The notes below the pieces were generated by a model, which was not told the DNA's origin, searched no databases, and saw only the letters and a program-made list of their open reading frames with translations. DNA of 64,000 nt from Alphaproteobacteria bacterium (GTDB lineage Bacteria > Pseudomonadota > Alphaproteobacteria > Rickettsiales > SXRF01): NCBI GenBank assembly GCA_020049775.1, contig JAGVLO010000004.1:1-64000 (forward strand). Direction: 5' to 3'. Each line of letters opens with the position of its first letter. Within the stretch, counting starts at the first letter, position 1. The position numbers and the translations under genes are program-made. Below, piece by piece: positions 16,439 through 22,798 of this stretch.

Positions 16439-16768
16439 ATGAACGCCGTAAAAAAACTTACTCTACTTGCTGCTCTGGTTGCGCTTCCTTACGCATCTGC
16501 TGTTGCAGCAGACTATACCATCATCATCAAGGACCATAAATTCACTCCGGCAGAGCTGAAACTGCCCGCCGGTGAAAAGCACAAGCTGATTGTTAAAAAC
16601 GAAGATGCAACACCTGAAGAATTTGAAAGCCACGATATGAAGCGTGAAAAGATTGTTGCCGGCAACAGCCAAATTACCGTCAATGTCGGGCCGCTCAAAG
16701 CCGGCACCTACAAGTATTTTGGTGAATTCAACCAGGCGACCGCGCAGGGCGTAATTATCGCTGAATAA
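16439..16768 (+). CDS. Periplasmic cupredoxin-like iron-uptake protein
   Basis: A 109-residue secreted protein: signal peptide to about residue 23 (AVAA-DY), then a single cupredoxin-like beta-sandwich (DYTIIIKDHKFTPAELKLPAG; DATPEEFESHD; AGTYKYFGEF). It resembles the cupredoxin domain of EfeO/FtrB-type proteins that work with FTR1 permeases. The usual blue-copper Cys is absent, so it probably binds Cu or Fe through His/Glu/Met rather than acting as an electron carrier. Followed 30 bp later by the permease gene. Confidence 0.85.
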   Translation: MNAVKKLTLLAALVALPYASAVAADYTIIIKDHKFTPAELKLPAGEKHKLIVKNEDATPEEFESHDMKREKIVAGNSQITVNVGPLKAGTYKYFGEFNQATAQGVIIAE

Positions 16769-16798
16769 GCCCTGATATATCAAACACAAGGAACTGCC

Positions 16799-17647
16799 AT
16801 GTTATCGACTGCCATCATTATCTTCCGTGAAATGCTTGAAATAGCGCTTATACTGGGCGTTGTTATGGCGGCTACGCGCGAACTTAAAGGCCGCATACGC
16901 TGGATATTGGGCGGCATTGCCGCGGGGCTTGCGGGCGCAGGTGTTGTGGCATTTTCGGCAGAGGCAATTGCGGGTGCCATGGCCGGTTCCGGTCAGGAAA
17001 TGTTCAATGCTATGATCCTGTTTACAGCAGCGTTGATGATTGGCTGGACATTGGTATGGGTGCGCCGCCACGCCCGCGAGATGACTGCACATTTTCGTGA
17101 TGTAGGCAAACAAGTGGGCGAGGGCAGGCTGCCGTTTTATTCGCTGTCCATGATTACCGGCCTTGCCATTTTGCGTGAGGGCTCGGAAATGGTGATGTTC
17201 ATTTATGCAGCGCTGGCCACCGGCCAGAATGTTGCTTTCGTTGTAGCAGGCAGCTTACTGGGCGGGGTTCTTGGCCTTATCGCAGGCGTGATGCTGTATA
17301 TGGGCCTTATCAAAATGTCAGCCAGATATATGCTCAATTTCACCAGTTGGGTATTGCTGCTGCTGGTGGCCGGACTTACGGCACATGCTGCGGGCTACCT
17401 GACCGCTGCCGGATATTTTGAAACCATGTCCGATCCTGTGTGGGATACGTCGTGGTTACTGGCAGAAAGCAGCCTGCTTGGTCAGACATTGCATACGCTG
17501 ATTGGTTATACCGAGCAACCTTCGGCCATACAGCTGATATTTTATGTGGGTACGTTTGTAACTCTCGGTTGGCTTAGTATGCGTGTTGGCAACCCTGTCA
17601 AAACGGCAGCAGGTACAGGTGCAACAACTGTTGGAAACCCTGCCTGA
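16799..17647 (+). CDS. FTR1-family iron permease
   Basis: A 282-residue inner-membrane protein with about seven hydrophobic segments and both FTR1 iron-binding motifs: REMLE at residues 10-14 and REGSE near 125. The family imports iron, usually with a partner that oxidises or delivers Fe(II). The cupredoxin gene upstream is the likely partner, as in FtrABCD or EfeUOB systems. AAGGA precedes the ATG. No DyP peroxidase or ferredoxin gene is adjacent, so the system is minimal. Confidence 0.93.
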   Translation: MLSTAIIIFREMLEIALILGVVMAATRELKGRIRWILGGIAAGLAGAGVVAFSAEAIAGAMAGSGQEMFNAMILFTAALMIGWTLVWVRRHAREMTAHFRDVGKQVGEGRLPFYSLSMITGLAILREGSEMVMFIYAALATGQNVAFVVAGSLLGGVLGLIAGVMLYMGLIKMSARYMLNFTSWVLLLLVAGLTAHAAGYLTAAGYFETMSDPVWDTSWLLAESSLLGQTLHTLIGYTEQPSAIQLIFYVGTFVTLGWLSMRVGNPVKTAAGTGATTVGNPA

Positions 17648-17665
17648 GTTTTATAAAACAGACAT

Positions 17666-17700
17666 AAAAAAGGGCAGCCAATAGCTGCCCTTTTTATTTT
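17666..17700. terminator. Bidirectional-looking terminator after the iron permease
   Basis: GGGCAGC (17672-17678) and GCTGCCC (17684-17690) pair perfectly, flanked by A-run and T-run. It can stop the permease transcript and also the convergent Cys-rich gene. Confidence 0.9.
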
Positions 17701-17715
17701 CAGTAACGGATAACG

Positions 17716-18087
17716 CTATTTTTCGGAATCGATGGTGATTTTTGCCTTGGCTGCGGTTTTATCCTTCGCAGCTTTCAGGCACATCGGGCATTCGCCTTTA
17801 GCGGTACTGCCGTCTTTGCTCATCATGCACATACCGCTTTTGCAGCATTGTCCGTCCTTGCAGCACTGGCTATCGCACGTGGTGCATTTGCCATCCTTCA
17901 TGACGCACATATTGCTCTTGCAGCAGTCGCATTTGCCATCCTTGTTGGCATCCTGACAGCATCCGGACTTGCCGTCCATCATGCACATGCCGCCTTTACA
18001 GCATGACGCTTTTTCGCTGCTAAACATCGGGCCGGCACAGGCAGCGAGGAATAACAGGGCAACAATTGGAATCAGTTTCTTAAACAT
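17716..18087 (-). CDS. Cys/Met-rich lipoprotein, putative metal binder
   Basis: A 123-residue lipoprotein: basic start, hydrophobic core and lipobox LAAC with Cys17. The mature part contains about 18 more cysteines in CC and CxxC patterns plus clustered Met (repeated CCKxGMCMM-type units), ending in a Lys-rich tail. This resembles periplasmic soft-metal (Cu(I), Ag, Cd) sinks rather than a folded enzyme. No named family is recognised. It lies between the iron permease and another exported Cys/Met protein. Confidence 0.8.
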   Translation of the reverse strand: MFKKLIPIVALLFLAACAGPMFSSEKASCCKGGMCMMDGKSGCCQDANKDGKCDCCKSNMCVMKDGKCTTCDSQCCKDGQCCKSGMCMMSKDGSTAKGECPMCLKAAKDKTAAKAKITIDSEK

Positions 18088-18139
18088 AAGATCCTCTTAT
18101 TTTGAATGTGAAATAAAAATGAATAACTAGAAAAGAACT

Positions 18140-18502
18140 CTAAACACTGTTCTTGGGAGGGCGTTCAGGCATGTTGCCGGAATACATGGGGAGCGGCTGG
18201 TGCTGTGTGCTTATTCCAGCTGCCGTAGTAACAGGGTGCAGGCTTGTCTGTGTACCAGATGCATATGCCGGGGAGGGGGAGCATTTTGCGGCGCAGGCCA
18301 TATCCGCACAGCAATCCATTGTGTTTTTTGTGCGCATATCATGGCAGCTCATGGAAGAGGGCTGGTTGGATTTGCACAGCAACACAGGCGTACCCGCTGC
18401 CGCCACACACAAAAAGCAAAAGGCAAGCATCAGGAGGAACGGGTGGGGATATCTGCTCTGAGCGGACAGTATTTGCATAGCTTTAATTCTATCATGCTTC
18501 AT
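18140..18502 (-). CDS. Exported Cys/Met/His-containing small protein
   Basis: About 120 residues from ATG 18502 (a TTG at 18520 would add six). An N-terminal hydrophobic segment (PFLLMLAFCFLCVAAAG) is followed by a Cys-rich patch (SCHDMRTKNTMDCCADMACAAKCS) and a low-complexity tail. It resembles small copper-related periplasmic proteins, but no family is certain. It is transcribed with, and 52 bp upstream of, the Cys-rich lipoprotein. Confidence 0.6.
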   Translation of the reverse strand: MKHDRIKAMQILSAQSRYPHPFLLMLAFCFLCVAAAGTPVLLCKSNQPSSMSCHDMRTKNTMDCCADMACAAKCSPSPAYASGTQTSLHPVTTAAGISTQHQPLPMYSGNMPERPPKNSV

Positions 18503-18588
18503 ATATAAAAAGCCAACCAACTGATAAGAACGAAATGTATAATATCATCATGTTTTTAAATAATAAATATAATTCCACATCTATTTAG

Positions 18589-18605
18589 TTGAGAATAATT
18601 ATCAA
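18589..18605 (+). promoter_or_regulatory. Fur-like operator before the TonB-dependent receptor
   Basis: TTGAGAATAATTATCAA is a 17-bp palindrome with one mismatched pair and resembles the classic Fur consensus (GATAATGATAATCATTATC). It lies about 80 bp before the receptor start. Confidence 0.55.
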
Positions 18606-18686
18606 TAGCATTGACAGCCTCTGAAACTGGGTATAAGAGAGTGCGAATTACTCGCAACTCAACTTATGCCGGAATAATTGCTTACA

Positions 18687-20945
18687 ATGTCTCCCTACTT
18701 ACAAAAATCCCTGCCATCTGCGCTTGCCGCACTACTTGTTTCCACTGCGCTGCCTTCCTATGCAGAAACGTCTCCGCAGCCAGAAAAACGCGCAAAAGTG
18801 ATGGAGCGCGTCACGGTTATCGGCAATAAAGACCGCAAGGATGAAATACCCGGATCGGCCACCATCGTGAATGAAGAAACGCTGGATCGTTATCAGTTCA
18901 CCGACGTGCATCGCGCTTTGCAGGAAGTACCCGGAGTTACGGTGCAGGAAGAGGACGGCTACGGATTGCGTCCGAATATCGCCATTCGCGGCGGGCGCTC
19001 CAACCGCAGCGCCGACATCACCGTGATGGAAGATAATATCCTTGCTGCGCCTGCGCCATATGCCTCACCGGAAGCGTATTATTTCCCGCAGATGGACCGT
19101 ATGCAGTCGCTGGAAGTCATCAAGGGTACCGGCGCAGTGAAATATGGCCCGCGTACCACCAACGGTGTACTCAACATGGTTACCAAGCCCATTCCGTCAA
19201 AGAAGCAGGCGGATATTGTAGCCGAGGCAGGCGCGTATGAAACTTTCCGCACCGGCATCACCGCTGGTAGCAGCTTTGAGAATTACGGGTTGATGCTCAA
19301 CGCCGTACACAAGGAAACACACGGTTTCAAGGACATCGATTTCATCGGCGGCGACACCGGCTATGACGTGCAGGACGTGCTGGGCAAATTCCGCGTGCAT
19401 AGCAGCCCGGGCGCTGAGCGCTATCAGGAGCTTGAAATCAAGATGGGTTATTACGACGAATTGTCGAAAGAAACCTATGTCGGCCTGACTGAGGAAGATT
19501 TTAATGCCACGCCCAACCGTCGCTATGGTGCCAGCCAGCTCGACAATATGGATGTGGGTGCATGGCAGGCGGCGGCCACGCATTTTATCGAGCTGTCGGA
19601 CAAATACGACCTCACCACCACGCTCTACCATAACTATGTGGACCGCGCATGGTACAAGCTAGACAGTGTGCGCATCGCCGGTGTCACGCGTAGCTTAAGC
19701 GCCATATTCTCCGACCCTGTGGCTAACGCGGCTTATGTGGCGGCGCTGCAATCTCCGGATACGGCAGGCGGTACATTTGCCATCCGCGATAACGCCCGCA
19801 AATATTTTGGCCAGGGCGTGCAGACGGTGCTTGGCACGAACTACAGCCTCGGCGAAACGCAGAACAAACTTGAAATTGGCACACGCCTGCACCGCGACGA
19901 GGAAGACCGCTTCCAGCGCGACGACCGCTTTGACATGGTGGACGGGCAGGCGGTATTTACCAGCATCGGTGCGCCGGGCAGCGCGGGCAACCGCGTGCAA
20001 AGCGCTAACGCATGGAGCGGCTTTGTTGAAAACGAAATACAGTGGGAAAACTGGACAGTGACCCCCGGCCTGCGTTTTGAATACATCAACCTGAAGCGCA
20101 GGGATTACGGCAACGCCGACCCGACCCGCGCAGGTACGGCACTCACCGTGTTTGAAAACGACCTGCTGGTGTGGATACCCGGCGCGGGCGCCACCTATGC
20201 GCTTACGGATTCGTGGAAAATCATCGGCGGCGTGCATAAGGGCTTTGCGCCTCCGGGCGTACCCGGCACAGCGGGCGAGGCGGCCTTCACCAAGGAAGAA
20301 GAAAGCCTGAACTATGAATTCGGCACACGCTACCGCCAAGGTGAATGGGCGGGCGAGGTAATTGGCTTTTTCAACGATTATAAAAACCTGCTCGGGCGTG
20401 ACACGCTGTCGTCTGGCGGCGGCGGCACGGGCGATGCCTTTAACGGCGGCGAGGTGCATGTGATGGGCGTGGAAGCCACCGCGCAATATGACGCGGCGCG
20501 TGTGGCGGGCTTCTCCGAGCGCTACCGTTTCCCGTTCACGGCTACCTACACGTTGACGCATGGCGAATTTAAAAATAATTTTGTCAGCACCTTTGAAGAA
20601 TGGGGTACGGTCAGCTCCGGCGACGAGTTACCCTATACACCGCGCCACCAGCTTTATATTTCGGTTGCGCTGGAAACAGACGAGTGGGGCGTGTCGCTGG
20701 GCAGCAAGTTTGTGGATGAAATGCGCACGGTGGCGGGCAGCGGCGCGATACCGGAGCTACAGCGCATCGATTCGCATGTGGTGGTGGATATCGCCGCCGA
20801 ATATAAAATCAACGACCGCTTCAGTGCCTTCACCACCATTGAAAACGCGCTCGACGAAGAATATGTAGCGGCGCGCCGCCCTGCGGGTGCGCGCCCGGGT
20901 ATGCCGCTGATGGCCATGGCGGGCGTCAAGATTTCACTATGGTAG
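18687..20945 (+). CDS. TonB-dependent outer-membrane receptor, FecA-like
   Basis: 752 residues from ATG 18687. It has a signal peptide (LPSALAALLVSTALPSYA), a TonB-box-like ERVTVIG near residue 40, a plug domain (ALQEVPGVTVQEEDGYGLRPNIAIRGGR; VIKGTGAVKYGPRTTNGVLNMVTKP) and a long beta-barrel ending in an aromatic residue (KISLW). The plug resembles FecA-type ferric-citrate/siderophore receptors. The N-terminal signalling domain of FecA is missing, so it should not control a sigma factor. It is followed by tonB after 4 bp and preceded by a Fur-like box. Confidence 0.92.
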   Translation: MSPYLQKSLPSALAALLVSTALPSYAETSPQPEKRAKVMERVTVIGNKDRKDEIPGSATIVNEETLDRYQFTDVHRALQEVPGVTVQEEDGYGLRPNIAIRGGRSNRSADITVMEDNILAAPAPYASPEAYYFPQMDRMQSLEVIKGTGAVKYGPRTTNGVLNMVTKPIPSKKQADIVAEAGAYETFRTGITAGSSFENYGLMLNAVHKETHGFKDIDFIGGDTGYDVQDVLGKFRVHSSPGAERYQELEIKMGYYDELSKETYVGLTEEDFNATPNRRYGASQLDNMDVGAWQAAATHFIELSDKYDLTTTLYHNYVDRAWYKLDSVRIAGVTRSLSAIFSDPVANAAYVAALQSPDTAGGTFAIRDNARKYFGQGVQTVLGTNYSLGETQNKLEIGTRLHRDEEDRFQRDDRFDMVDGQAVFTSIGAPGSAGNRVQSANAWSGFVENEIQWENWTVTPGLRFEYINLKRRDYGNADPTRAGTALTVFENDLLVWIPGAGATYALTDSWKIIGGVHKGFAPPGVPGTAGEAAFTKEEESLNYEFGTRYRQGEWAGEVIGFFNDYKNLLGRDTLSSGGGGTGDAFNGGEVHVMGVEATAQYDAARVAGFSERYRFPFTATYTLTHGEFKNNFVSTFEEWGTVSSGDELPYTPRHQLYISVALETDEWGVSLGSKFVDEMRTVAGSGAIPELQRIDSHVVVDIAAEYKINDRFSAFTTIENALDEEYVAARRPAGARPGMPLMAMAGVKISLW

Positions 20946-20949
20946 TGGC

Positions 20950-21606
20950 ATGATGCTCACCGCTGGCAATTTCAGGCTTTCATCACCGGACATAATCCAC
21001 TTGCGCTTCGGCGCGTTGGGTGGGTCGGTGGCGGTGCATGGCCTGCTGCTTGCGGCATTGCTTTACACTGTGCTTCCGGCGGAGCTGCCGCCGCAGCAAT
21101 TTGTGGAAGTCACGCTGGTGGCGGGTGCGCCTGCCGAGTTGCCGCAGCCCAAACCTGTTGAGCAGCAGAAGGCAGAAACTGAAATGCCCAAGATGGACGT
21201 GGCGCCGCAACCGGACAGCGTGCCGCTGCCGCAGAAAAAAGAGCAAGCCAAGCCAGCAGAAAAAAAGCCGGAAAAGCTTTCTGAATTAAGCCCTGCCGCA
21301 GGCAGCAATAATCTCAGTGCGGTGACCACCAAGCCGCAGTTCGACGCTGCTTACTTGCGCAACCCCGCACCGGAATATCCCGCGCAGGCCAAACGCCGCC
21401 ACATGGAAGGCAGTGTGATGCTCGATGTGCTGGTATCGCCCGACGGCCAGCCGCGCTCGGTGACTGTGGCGCAGAGCAGCGGTTTTTCATTGCTGGATGA
21501 TTCGGCCAAAAACGCCGTTTCGCGCTGGAAGTTCCTGCCAGCCCGCAAAGGCACTGAAACGGTGGAAGCCCGCGTGATAGTGCCTATTGAGTTTAAGCTG
21601 CAGTAA
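20950..21606 (+). CDS. tonB: TonB energy-transducing protein
   Basis: 218 residues: short cytoplasmic start, one membrane helix at about 21-42 (GALGGSVAVHGLLLAALLYTVL), a Pro/Lys/Glu-rich periplasmic linker, and a TonB C-terminal domain (YLRNPAPEYPAQAKRRHMEGSVMLDVLVSPDGQ; SRWKFLPAR). It delivers proton-motive energy to outer-membrane receptors. Pairing with the receptor suggests a dedicated TonB. No exbB/exbD lies nearby. Confidence 0.93.
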   Translation: MMLTAGNFRLSSPDIIHLRFGALGGSVAVHGLLLAALLYTVLPAELPPQQFVEVTLVAGAPAELPQPKPVEQQKAETEMPKMDVAPQPDSVPLPQKKEQAKPAEKKPEKLSELSPAAGSNNLSAVTTKPQFDAAYLRNPAPEYPAQAKRRHMEGSVMLDVLVSPDGQPRSVTVAQSSGFSLLDDSAKNAVSRWKFLPARKGTETVEARVIVPIEFKLQ

Positions 21607-21698
21607 AAGCAAAAACGTCATACCTGATTATTTTATGTCATACCGGCGCAAAGTATAAATTTTGGCCGGTATCCATCTTTTACTAAATATAGACGTGG

Positions 21699-21718
21699 AC
21701 TCCGGCCTACGCCGGAGT
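21699..21718. repeat. Short palindromic (REP-like) element
   Basis: ACTCCGGC and GCCGGAGT pair perfectly around CTAC. The core (CCGGCCTACGCCGG) resembles dispersed palindromes common in proteobacterial genomes. It lies between tonB and the convergent PLD-like gene and may act as a terminator. Confidence 0.55.
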
Positions 21719-21731
21719 GACGGGGGTGGGG

Positions 21732-22472
21732 TTAAATTATTTGTTCCGTTCCGATATCCCACATTTTTTGAAATTTATTATGAAATTCATCAAACGCATC
21801 CGTGACTTGAATTAAAGATGCCACAGAGTTTTTAGGTCCATCTTTGAATGATGCCCCAGAAATATAACATATTTTATCATCAATAAAGAGACATCTATCG
21901 TGTGCTTGCCCTGTTACTCTTATAGTAACATCTAGGCTAGACTGTTGCTTAAAGGCTTTTACTGCGGGAATTAGTTTTGTGACGTAATCCTTAGTCAACA
22001 ACTTAACTTTGACGCCTTGTTGTACATACGGCAAATAGCTTTCAACGAAATTTGCCTCGAGATATCGATCAACAAAAAACAAGTTTATCTTGGCACTTTC
22101 TACTAATTTGCGGACTTCATTAAAAAAATCATATCCTTTACCATGATCAACTAGGATCGCAGCAGGACCTGCTACTCGCAACTGTAAGGTTGTATGAGCT
22201 TGGTGAATTGTTGTAATCACTTCATGGATTGCAGCGCTAGAAAGTTTGGCCAGCATCTGATCAACATTTCCCATAGCAATTTTAAAACTAACTGCTTCTA
22301 AGGAGTCCCACAATTTAACTAATGCCAATGCACGACCTCTCCATGCCATATTTTCTGGGGTATTGTGGCGAAAAGTAGCCCTAGGTGGCATTGAATTCAA
22401 AAGATCATCAAATTGTACGAAAAGCTCTTGCTCGGTAAGCTTGCTTTTTGAAAGAGTTATATCTGATGTCAT
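21732..22472 (-). CDS. PLD-like (phospholipase D superfamily) protein, accessory
   Basis: 246 residues from ATG 22472. The C-terminal half looks like one PLD-type catalytic unit: INLFFVDRYLEANFVESYLPYVQQGVKVKLLT, then GQAHDRCLFIDDKICYISGASFKDG, where H-D-R replaces the usual HxK spacing. The N-terminal half is helical with no known domain. A single PLD unit could dimerise as a nuclease or lipase. Codon use is AT-richer than neighbours, and it sits beside tRNA-Pro, so acquisition is likely. A defence role is possible but not shown. Confidence 0.7.
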   Translation of the reverse strand: MTSDITLSKSKLTEQELFVQFDDLLNSMPPRATFRHNTPENMAWRGRALALVKLWDSLEAVSFKIAMGNVDQMLAKLSSAAIHEVITTIHQAHTTLQLRVAGPAAILVDHGKGYDFFNEVRKLVESAKINLFFVDRYLEANFVESYLPYVQQGVKVKLLTKDYVTKLIPAVKAFKQQSSLDVTIRVTGQAHDRCLFIDDKICYISGASFKDGPKNSVASLIQVTDAFDEFHNKFQKMWDIGTEQII

Positions 22473-22569
22473 GATCCTGACCAAAACGTGATTAATCCAT
22501 AGGGTATTGATACTCGCCTACTGGCTTCGTACCGTCAAGCAGCGGCTCACTGGTAAGCAACGTCTCATC

Positions 22570-22582
22570 GGGAGACAGGATT
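22570..22582. repeat. 13-bp copy of the tRNA-Pro 3' region
   Basis: GGGAGACAGGATT is repeated at 22728-22740, inside the acceptor/T-arm part of tRNA-Pro. It may be a remnant attachment site. The stretch between the copies holds a terminator and the short ORF 22492-22689 (minus), which I do not call a gene. Confidence 0.45.
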
Positions 22583-22690
22583 GACTCGGGTCTGCTGACC
22601 CTCGCCCTAAAGGGCGACTGCGCCGTCAATTTTTGCTTGCTGCAAAAATTACGAACCACGGTTCTCATCCTGTCGACCAGCTCTACCATT

Positions 22691-22798
<108 letters not shown>

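Follow-up and report, generated by a model that had tools for sequence, protein, structure and literature searches.

Bacterial metallothioneins such as SmtA and MymT are short, Cys-dense cytoplasmic proteins with almost no aromatic residues, and the Csp copper-storage proteins (NGO1701) are exported Cys-containing copper binders. The bufferins (DUF2282/Buf2), as described in the available text of PMC12452194, are a further group of exported, Cys-containing copper-binding proteins. Concerning small exported proteins with a regulatory role, the available account of the cutFOG operon of Rhodobacter capsulatus describes how copper bound to the nascent CutF protein delays its export, thereby opening a stem-loop that hides the ribosome site of the next gene (PMC9973294). 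CruR (DUF2946) of Bordetella pertussis is likewise copper-responsive and, according to the portion of the source available, lowers a TonB receptor through Rho, a direction opposite to that of CutF (PMC9426467), while toeprinting, in the accessible part of a further paper, suggests that CruR arrest occurs with two prolines in the ribosome (PMC12992588).

In the current study we analysed a window (the whole stretch of DNA under analysis, 64,000 nucleotides, located on contig C10 of its genome) in which a sequence-only reading had drawn attention to a pair of exported Cys/Met-rich proteins, one with about 19 cysteines in 123 residues, and had proposed that they form an undescribed periplasmic soft-metal sink between iron uptake genes. 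Both open reading frames were indeed found, 52 nt apart, with signal peptides judged by eye. The downstream gene (17716..18087, minus strand) encodes a predicted lipoprotein of 123 aa which on counting contains exactly 19 Cys and 11 Met and lacks His; its signal peptide and lipobox (LFLAAC; 18037..18087, minus strand) were assigned by eye, and one of the 19 cysteines is the predicted lipidated Cys17 of FLAAC. Past the signal peptide the mature protein retains 10 Met and a single aromatic residue. The repeated CC/CxxC and Met units described earlier are borne out, CC occurring five times and CxxC three times, and three units starting with CCKxxMCxM at residues 29, 55 and 81 follow one another with a period of exactly 26 residues (17770..18003, minus strand). 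The densest 100 residues of the protein hold 19 Cys, compared to 12 in the runner-up among the window's 630 ORFs of 50 aa or more, taken from all six frames. A terminator-like hairpin (17667..17695) is common to this gene and the converging FTR1 gene. Like SmtA and MymT, the lipoprotein is short, Cys-dense and nearly without aromatic residues, but unlike these metallothioneins it is predicted to be a lipoprotein, carries Met-containing repeats and displays no sequence match to them.

Searches of Pfam and NCBIfam returned no family at E up to 1 for the lipoprotein or the upstream protein, no DUF2282 or other bufferin precursor domain being found by Pfam in the lipoprotein at that cut-off; PHROGs matched neither protein at E up to 0.01, and the lipoprotein alignment had no match among PDB chains at E up to 1. 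As far as searches of these four collections reach, the lipoprotein is a new family, and within those bounds the word 'undescribed' holds for it. A profile built from five members, window included, matched eight of the 343 genomes examined from the order (that of the window and seven others), and one scan of 84,980 named species genomes gave seven loci, the same seven as in the order search, all of them in metagenome-assembled genomes labelled Alphaproteobacteria, Pseudomonadota or Rickettsiales. Three further loci with relatives were present on viral contigs in IMG/VR, and the window's own genome carries a paralogue, one intact 94-aa frame at the end of contig C7; the plasmid search gave no match at E 0.01. 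In a class sample of 385 genomes the profile matched three, i.e. the window's own, G006 again and G493; the last of these, a match with one internal stop, lies by eye among ribosomal-protein genes and was dismissed as due to chance. When a profile was built from the seven relatives without the window protein, it ranked the window lipoprotein first of the 630 ORFs (E 2e-9), and the pattern MFK..P.....AC is common to all eight aligned rows, with AC invariant.

The search for homologues and their neighbours that the sequence-only reading had proposed yielded 11 relatives (seven genomes, the paralogue and three viral contigs, with G040 and G340 being near-copies), nine of which adjoin copper or other metal genes. 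These neighbours comprise multicopper oxidase, CopB, cupredoxin-CusF, HMBD P-type ATPase, DUF2933, RND pump and HMA-MauE genes, each of these types having been confirmed by Pfam in examples and the remainder assigned by eye, and the 'MerR-like' label given to some nearby genes derives from sequence reading. The two exceptions are L037, whose match begins at the edge of a contig and has phage genes beside it, and G106, in which a leader precedes the gene and no metal gene was recognised nearby. Since nine of the 11 relatives adjoin metal genes, several of them next to phage genes, the best reading of the lipoprotein is that of a probable Cu(I)/soft-metal buffer.

Copper or heavy-metal clusters, most of them with the lipoprotein, were seen to adjoin phage genes at L036, L037 and L038 (IMG/VR) and at L020, L022, L024, L025 and L113; the phage genes include an integrase and a primosomal protein at L036, an endolysin and a tail fibre at L037 and a lysozyme at L113, the others being assigned by eye. 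Temperate phages appear to carry such clusters as cargo in this group. At L022:11118-13057, cation-efflux, signal peptidase II and FTR1-family genes stand in a row, an arrangement which we take to resemble a pbr-type lead cassette. The window's own genome also encodes a bufferin set (DUF2282, MNIO and DUF2063) at C1:87875-88672 and neighbouring positions (L070), a separate copper-buffer system.

The gene upstream of the lipoprotein gene (18140..18502, minus strand) encodes a protein of 120 aa from the ATG at 18502, or 112 aa from the ATG at 18478, with a hydrophobic N-terminus as judged by eye. With eight Cys and nine Met (start counted) in 120 residues it is far less Cys-rich than the lipoprotein. 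A CxxxC motif (CAAKC; 18281..18295, minus strand) lies 40 residues before a C-terminal Pro-Pro within ERPPKNSV, whose RPP codons (CGC CCT CCC; 18155..18163, minus strand) represent the proposed stalling motif. The 52-nt gap which separates it from the next same-strand gene (18088..18139) contains the Shine-Dalgarno sequence of the lipoprotein gene (GAGG at 18093-18096). The filters for CutF-like proteins given in the available text of PMC9973294 are a length below 150 aa, PP within 15 residues of the C-terminus, a CxxxC or similar motif and a Sec signal peptide; the window protein, at 112 or 120 aa, falls below the length limit, ends four residues past PP and carries CAAKC. It resembles CutF, as far as the latter is described there, in being a small, putatively exported protein with CxxxC, a C-terminal PP and a short same-strand gap, and in the spacing of these motifs, which amounts to 45 residues between the motifs in CutF and 40 from the last Cys to PP in the window. 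Unlike the arrangement in that account, its downstream gene encodes a Cys-rich lipoprotein and not a multicopper oxidase, and a stem-loop shielding the Shine-Dalgarno was looked for but not found in the window (PMC9973294). With CruR, from what the accessible text conveys, it shares an upstream ORF with a Cys motif and a C-terminal PP motif, although the latter reads RAPP in CruR and ERPP in the window (PMC9426467), and the DUF2946 model of Pfam has no match in the window protein, for which no Pfam family was found at E up to 1.

Because it fits the published rules (CxxxC, a C-terminal RPPK and a close downstream gene), the upstream gene is probably a CutF-like copper-sensing leader and not a second sink. 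A soft-metal sink, as proposed for the pair, is a putative role of the lipoprotein, where it is supported by composition and by the copper genes beside its relatives, and is probably wrong for the upstream protein on account of its kinship with CutF-like leaders. A leader profile was seeded with a five-member alignment (window, G106, G006, G340 and G020) and identified 26 loci, seeds included, in 20 of the 343 genomes of the order. All 26 are ORFs with at least four Cys that end in PP (RPP in 24, RPPK in 21), a feature that is partly by construction given that the profile contained the PP tail and only ORFs with PP near the end were kept. The distance from the last Cys to PP is 40-45 residues in every one of them, and the next gene starts 43-214 nt beyond the leader. 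When the profile was rebuilt from 25 leaders without the window row, the window leader ranked first of 630 ORFs (E 1.9e-4, the next at 0.91), and it still did so when all three lipoprotein-type rows were removed, but then only at E 0.015, with the next ORF at 0.08. The window leader is distant from the other rows, with an identity of 12-30%, which like the weaker E value counts against the proposed kinship.

The genes that follow the 26 leaders, sought on the same strand only and hence in part a feature of construction, encode 13 multicopper oxidases, seven outer-membrane efflux proteins, two HMBD proteins, one HMA protein and three Cys-rich lipoproteins, as classed by N-terminal sequence, with Pfam confirming one of the 13 oxidases (G006) and one of the seven efflux proteins (in the window's own genome). 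Recognisable metal genes consequently follow 23 of the 26, and the lipoprotein type follows three (window, G106 and G097), two of which (window and G106) were themselves seeds of the search. G106 carries the same pair, 43 nt apart, with upstream proteins that are 24% identical and have an equal Cys-to-PP spacing. The 60-aa lipoprotein of G097 was reached through its leader alone, having been missed by the lipoprotein profile, and may be an independent case rather than kin by descent. Two further leaders are present in the window's own genome, on C13 before a multicopper oxidase and on C7 before a CusCBA-like operon.

A 26-row leader profile applied to 387 genomes of the class returned ten loci in eight genomes, four of which were rows of the profile itself (G006 and the three of the window's own genome, i.e. 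C13, C7 and the window). In each of the remaining six the C-terminal motif is RPP; multicopper oxidases follow two of them, and genes without recognisable identity follow the other four. Among these four, L074, L075 and L078 stand before similar proteins of 213-222 aa, in which a signal peptide is followed by RPVSYPGGW or alike, and the fourth, with a spacing of 35, stands before a different ORF. On these data the link of such leaders to copper is less clear outside the order. Weak Pfam matches of two leaders to DUF6660 and Conotoxin, both at E 0.012, were below the cut-off and were not used. At L113:811-1197, an exported Cys-containing ORF with GPPLKPP, not at the very end, precedes an outer-membrane efflux gene and is perhaps a CzcI-like leader.

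Reading of the sequences at L039-L064 and L073-L079 suggested that the last leader codons and the stop codon are complementary to the Shine-Dalgarno of the next gene, with compensating changes (CCUCUCGU/ACGAGAGG against CUCUCGCG/CGCGAGAG). The duplex energy of the leader tail with the Shine-Dalgarno was compared to that of 1000 tail shuffles, a pass being defined as no more than 50 of 1000 shuffles as good; L040, a near-copy of L039, was excluded, and L050, with its long gap, was moved from the 24-gene set to a further set of eight. The pairing passes in 18 of the 24 genes and in five of the further eight, giving 23 of 32 tests which are neither independent nor strict, the genes being mutually related and the shuffles preserving base composition only. 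By downstream type, the passes in the 24-gene set amount to 10 of 11 oxidases, six of seven efflux proteins, one of three lipoproteins and one of three others, and the cognate Shine-Dalgarno is strictly best, compared to sites of other groups, in 15 of 24. As judged from these complementarities, the leader family supports the CutF model.

The window leader behaves differently, its pairing being no better than chance with 605 of 1000 shuffles and 11 of 21 foreign sites as good; the G097 leader also fails (205 of 1000), and that of G106 passes (17 of 1000). The opening energy of the window ribosome site equals that of shuffled controls (5.03 versus 5.11 kcal/mol; 46 of 100). Two candidate elements in the window were rejected: the Pro-Pro codons (CCTCC) might have hidden the Shine-Dalgarno, but this 4-bp pairing was no better than shuffles, and a hairpin at the leader stop codon (AAGAAC/GTTCTT, -3.6 kcal/mol) was too weak to be claimed as an attenuator. 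Since the window holds no Shine-Dalgarno mask, its leader must act otherwise, through an unrecognised element, or not at all, and given the failed pairing test we infer its manner of action.

Concerning the genomic setting, the claim that the pair lies between iron uptake genes is correct as a map position. On one side lie genes for a Cupredoxin_1 protein and an FTR1-family permease (Pfam; 16439..17647, plus strand), which also occur together in relatives without the pair; on the other, divergent from the leader, lie genes for a TonB-dependent receptor, whose part in iron uptake is putative, and a TonB protein (Pfam; 18678..21606, plus strand). Out of 37 genomes searched, 25 contained FTR1 matches, that of the window among them, and a cupredoxin-like ORF precedes FTR1 in 10 of the 11 loci read by eye. 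In G001, a genome of the same genus, tRNA-Pro lies approximately 175 nt beyond FTR1 and is itself followed by dapA; the window has approximately 5 kb between FTR1 and tRNA-Pro (17648-22721) that are without counterpart there, and these carry the leader/lipoprotein pair, the genes for the TonB receptor and TonB, and a weakly PLD-like gene. Because FTR1 directly precedes tRNA-Pro in that genome, the iron neighbourhood looks incidental, and 'between iron genes' describes the map and not a shared function. No leader/lipoprotein pair was seen in 11 FTR1 loci and four receptor loci (flanks of approximately 1.5 kb, ORFs of 70 aa or more). A relative of the window TonB receptor in G005, 73% and 64% identical in two stretches, belongs to a heavy-metal cassette with a TonB-like gene, ExbB and ExbD, which a phage lysozyme gene adjoins. 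The region separating the divergent leader and receptor genes contains a Fur-box-like 15-mer (18590..18604, plus strand) with one mismatch to the consensus TGATAATNATTATCA; no other such site was found in the 64 kb, compared to an expectation of 0.17 at up to two mismatches, and a site of this kind appears in 17 of 100 shuffles. It coincides in part with a weak minus-strand promoter match for the leader (18566-18595), so that iron control is possible.

It is nonetheless quite unlikely, in our assessment, that the pair serves iron or mixed-metal homeostasis together with the FTR1/cupredoxin and TonB genes under Fur control. The position between these genes, the single Fur-like 15-mer (a number also reached in 17 of 100 shuffles) and the FTR1-family gene within the G081 cassette would fit such a function, but the same-genus genome proceeds from FTR1 directly to tRNA-Pro, most lipoprotein relatives adjoin copper or other metal genes, and ligands limited to Cys and Met, with His absent, favour Cu(I) over Fe. 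We also consider it unlikely that both proteins are exported metal sinks, with the leader-like features of the upstream one being coincidental or vestigial: all 26 loci share a PP tail, a spacing of 40-45 residues and a downstream metal or Cys-rich gene, with the sequence between barely conserved, and this outweighs for us the export and the Cys and Met content common to both proteins, together with the lack in the window leader of the RNA mask of most relatives.

Regarding the lipoprotein itself, a role as copper donor or metal-delivery protein for cuproenzymes or for the divergent TonB system, instead of a buffer, is very unlikely; its predicted envelope anchor and its location beside a cupredoxin gene and opposite a TonB receptor gene would suit delivery, but Cys-dense repeats, the lack of a family match and a length that varies across relatives suit a buffer, and the relatives stand with resistance-type genes. 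That it should be a bufferin-like peptide with cysteines modified by an MNIO enzyme encoded elsewhere in the genome seems most improbable. The genome does possess the DUF2282-MNIO-DUF2063 set on contig C1, and the available text of PMC12452194 gives approximately 16% as the share of Buf2 bufferins with predicted lipoprotein signals. However, the lipoprotein has no DUF2282 or other Pfam match, MNIO and DUF2063 genes are not beside it, and the only MNIO match of the genome (C1:87875-88672, the window being on C10) already has its own DUF2282 partner; in this it differs from the bufferins as described in that text, no linked MNIO gene having been recognised (PMC12452194).

We therefore return to a two-gene copper module, in which a copper-sensing leader controls a Cys/Met lipoprotein that buffers copper, a proposal which we regard with moderate confidence. 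It builds on the anatomy of the locus, on the relatives that both proteins have by sequence, on the copper genes beside these relatives and on the pairs in G106 and G097. The leader peptide would be translated and exported, and copper would be caught on its CxxxC as the leader emerges at the translocon mouth; this would alter the length of the ribosome pause at the C-terminal Arg-Pro-Pro, and the altered pausing would change expression of the lipoprotein gene 52 nt downstream, most likely raising it. The lipoprotein, anchored in a membrane, would bind Cu(I) or another soft metal through its Cys/Met repeats at the periplasmic face and would in this way damp surges of copper. By analogy with CutF and CruR, and given the copper genes beside the relatives, we infer metal binding, pausing and an effect of copper that raises rather than lowers the lipoprotein. 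Because the usual RNA mask is missing in the window, the leader may work by a route other than Shine-Dalgarno unmasking; an envelope-anchored metallothionein switched in this manner by copper on a nascent leader is a tentative proposal, to which we give somewhat less than even weight.

The upstream gene is probably an additional CutF-like leader with an unusual partner, the lipoprotein being probably new as a partner for a known kind of leader. The pairing of a leader with a Cys-rich lipoprotein was not found described: no lipoprotein of this type is among the neighbours that the available text of PMC9973294 names for CutF-like genes, although the supplementary tables of the CutF study might list the pairing, and literature searches judged from titles and abstracts brought up no such lipoprotein that was recognised. 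The 32 leader genes tested, 23 of which have tails complementary to the next Shine-Dalgarno, represent a comparative set for base-by-base testing of the CutF model. If the proposed module is true, the sensor is a small exported Cys protein just as the sink is, and two genes that look like a pair of metal binders can turn out to encode a regulator and what it regulates; such a module would join copper-sensing arrest-type leaders and envelope metal buffers, which are usually studied apart.
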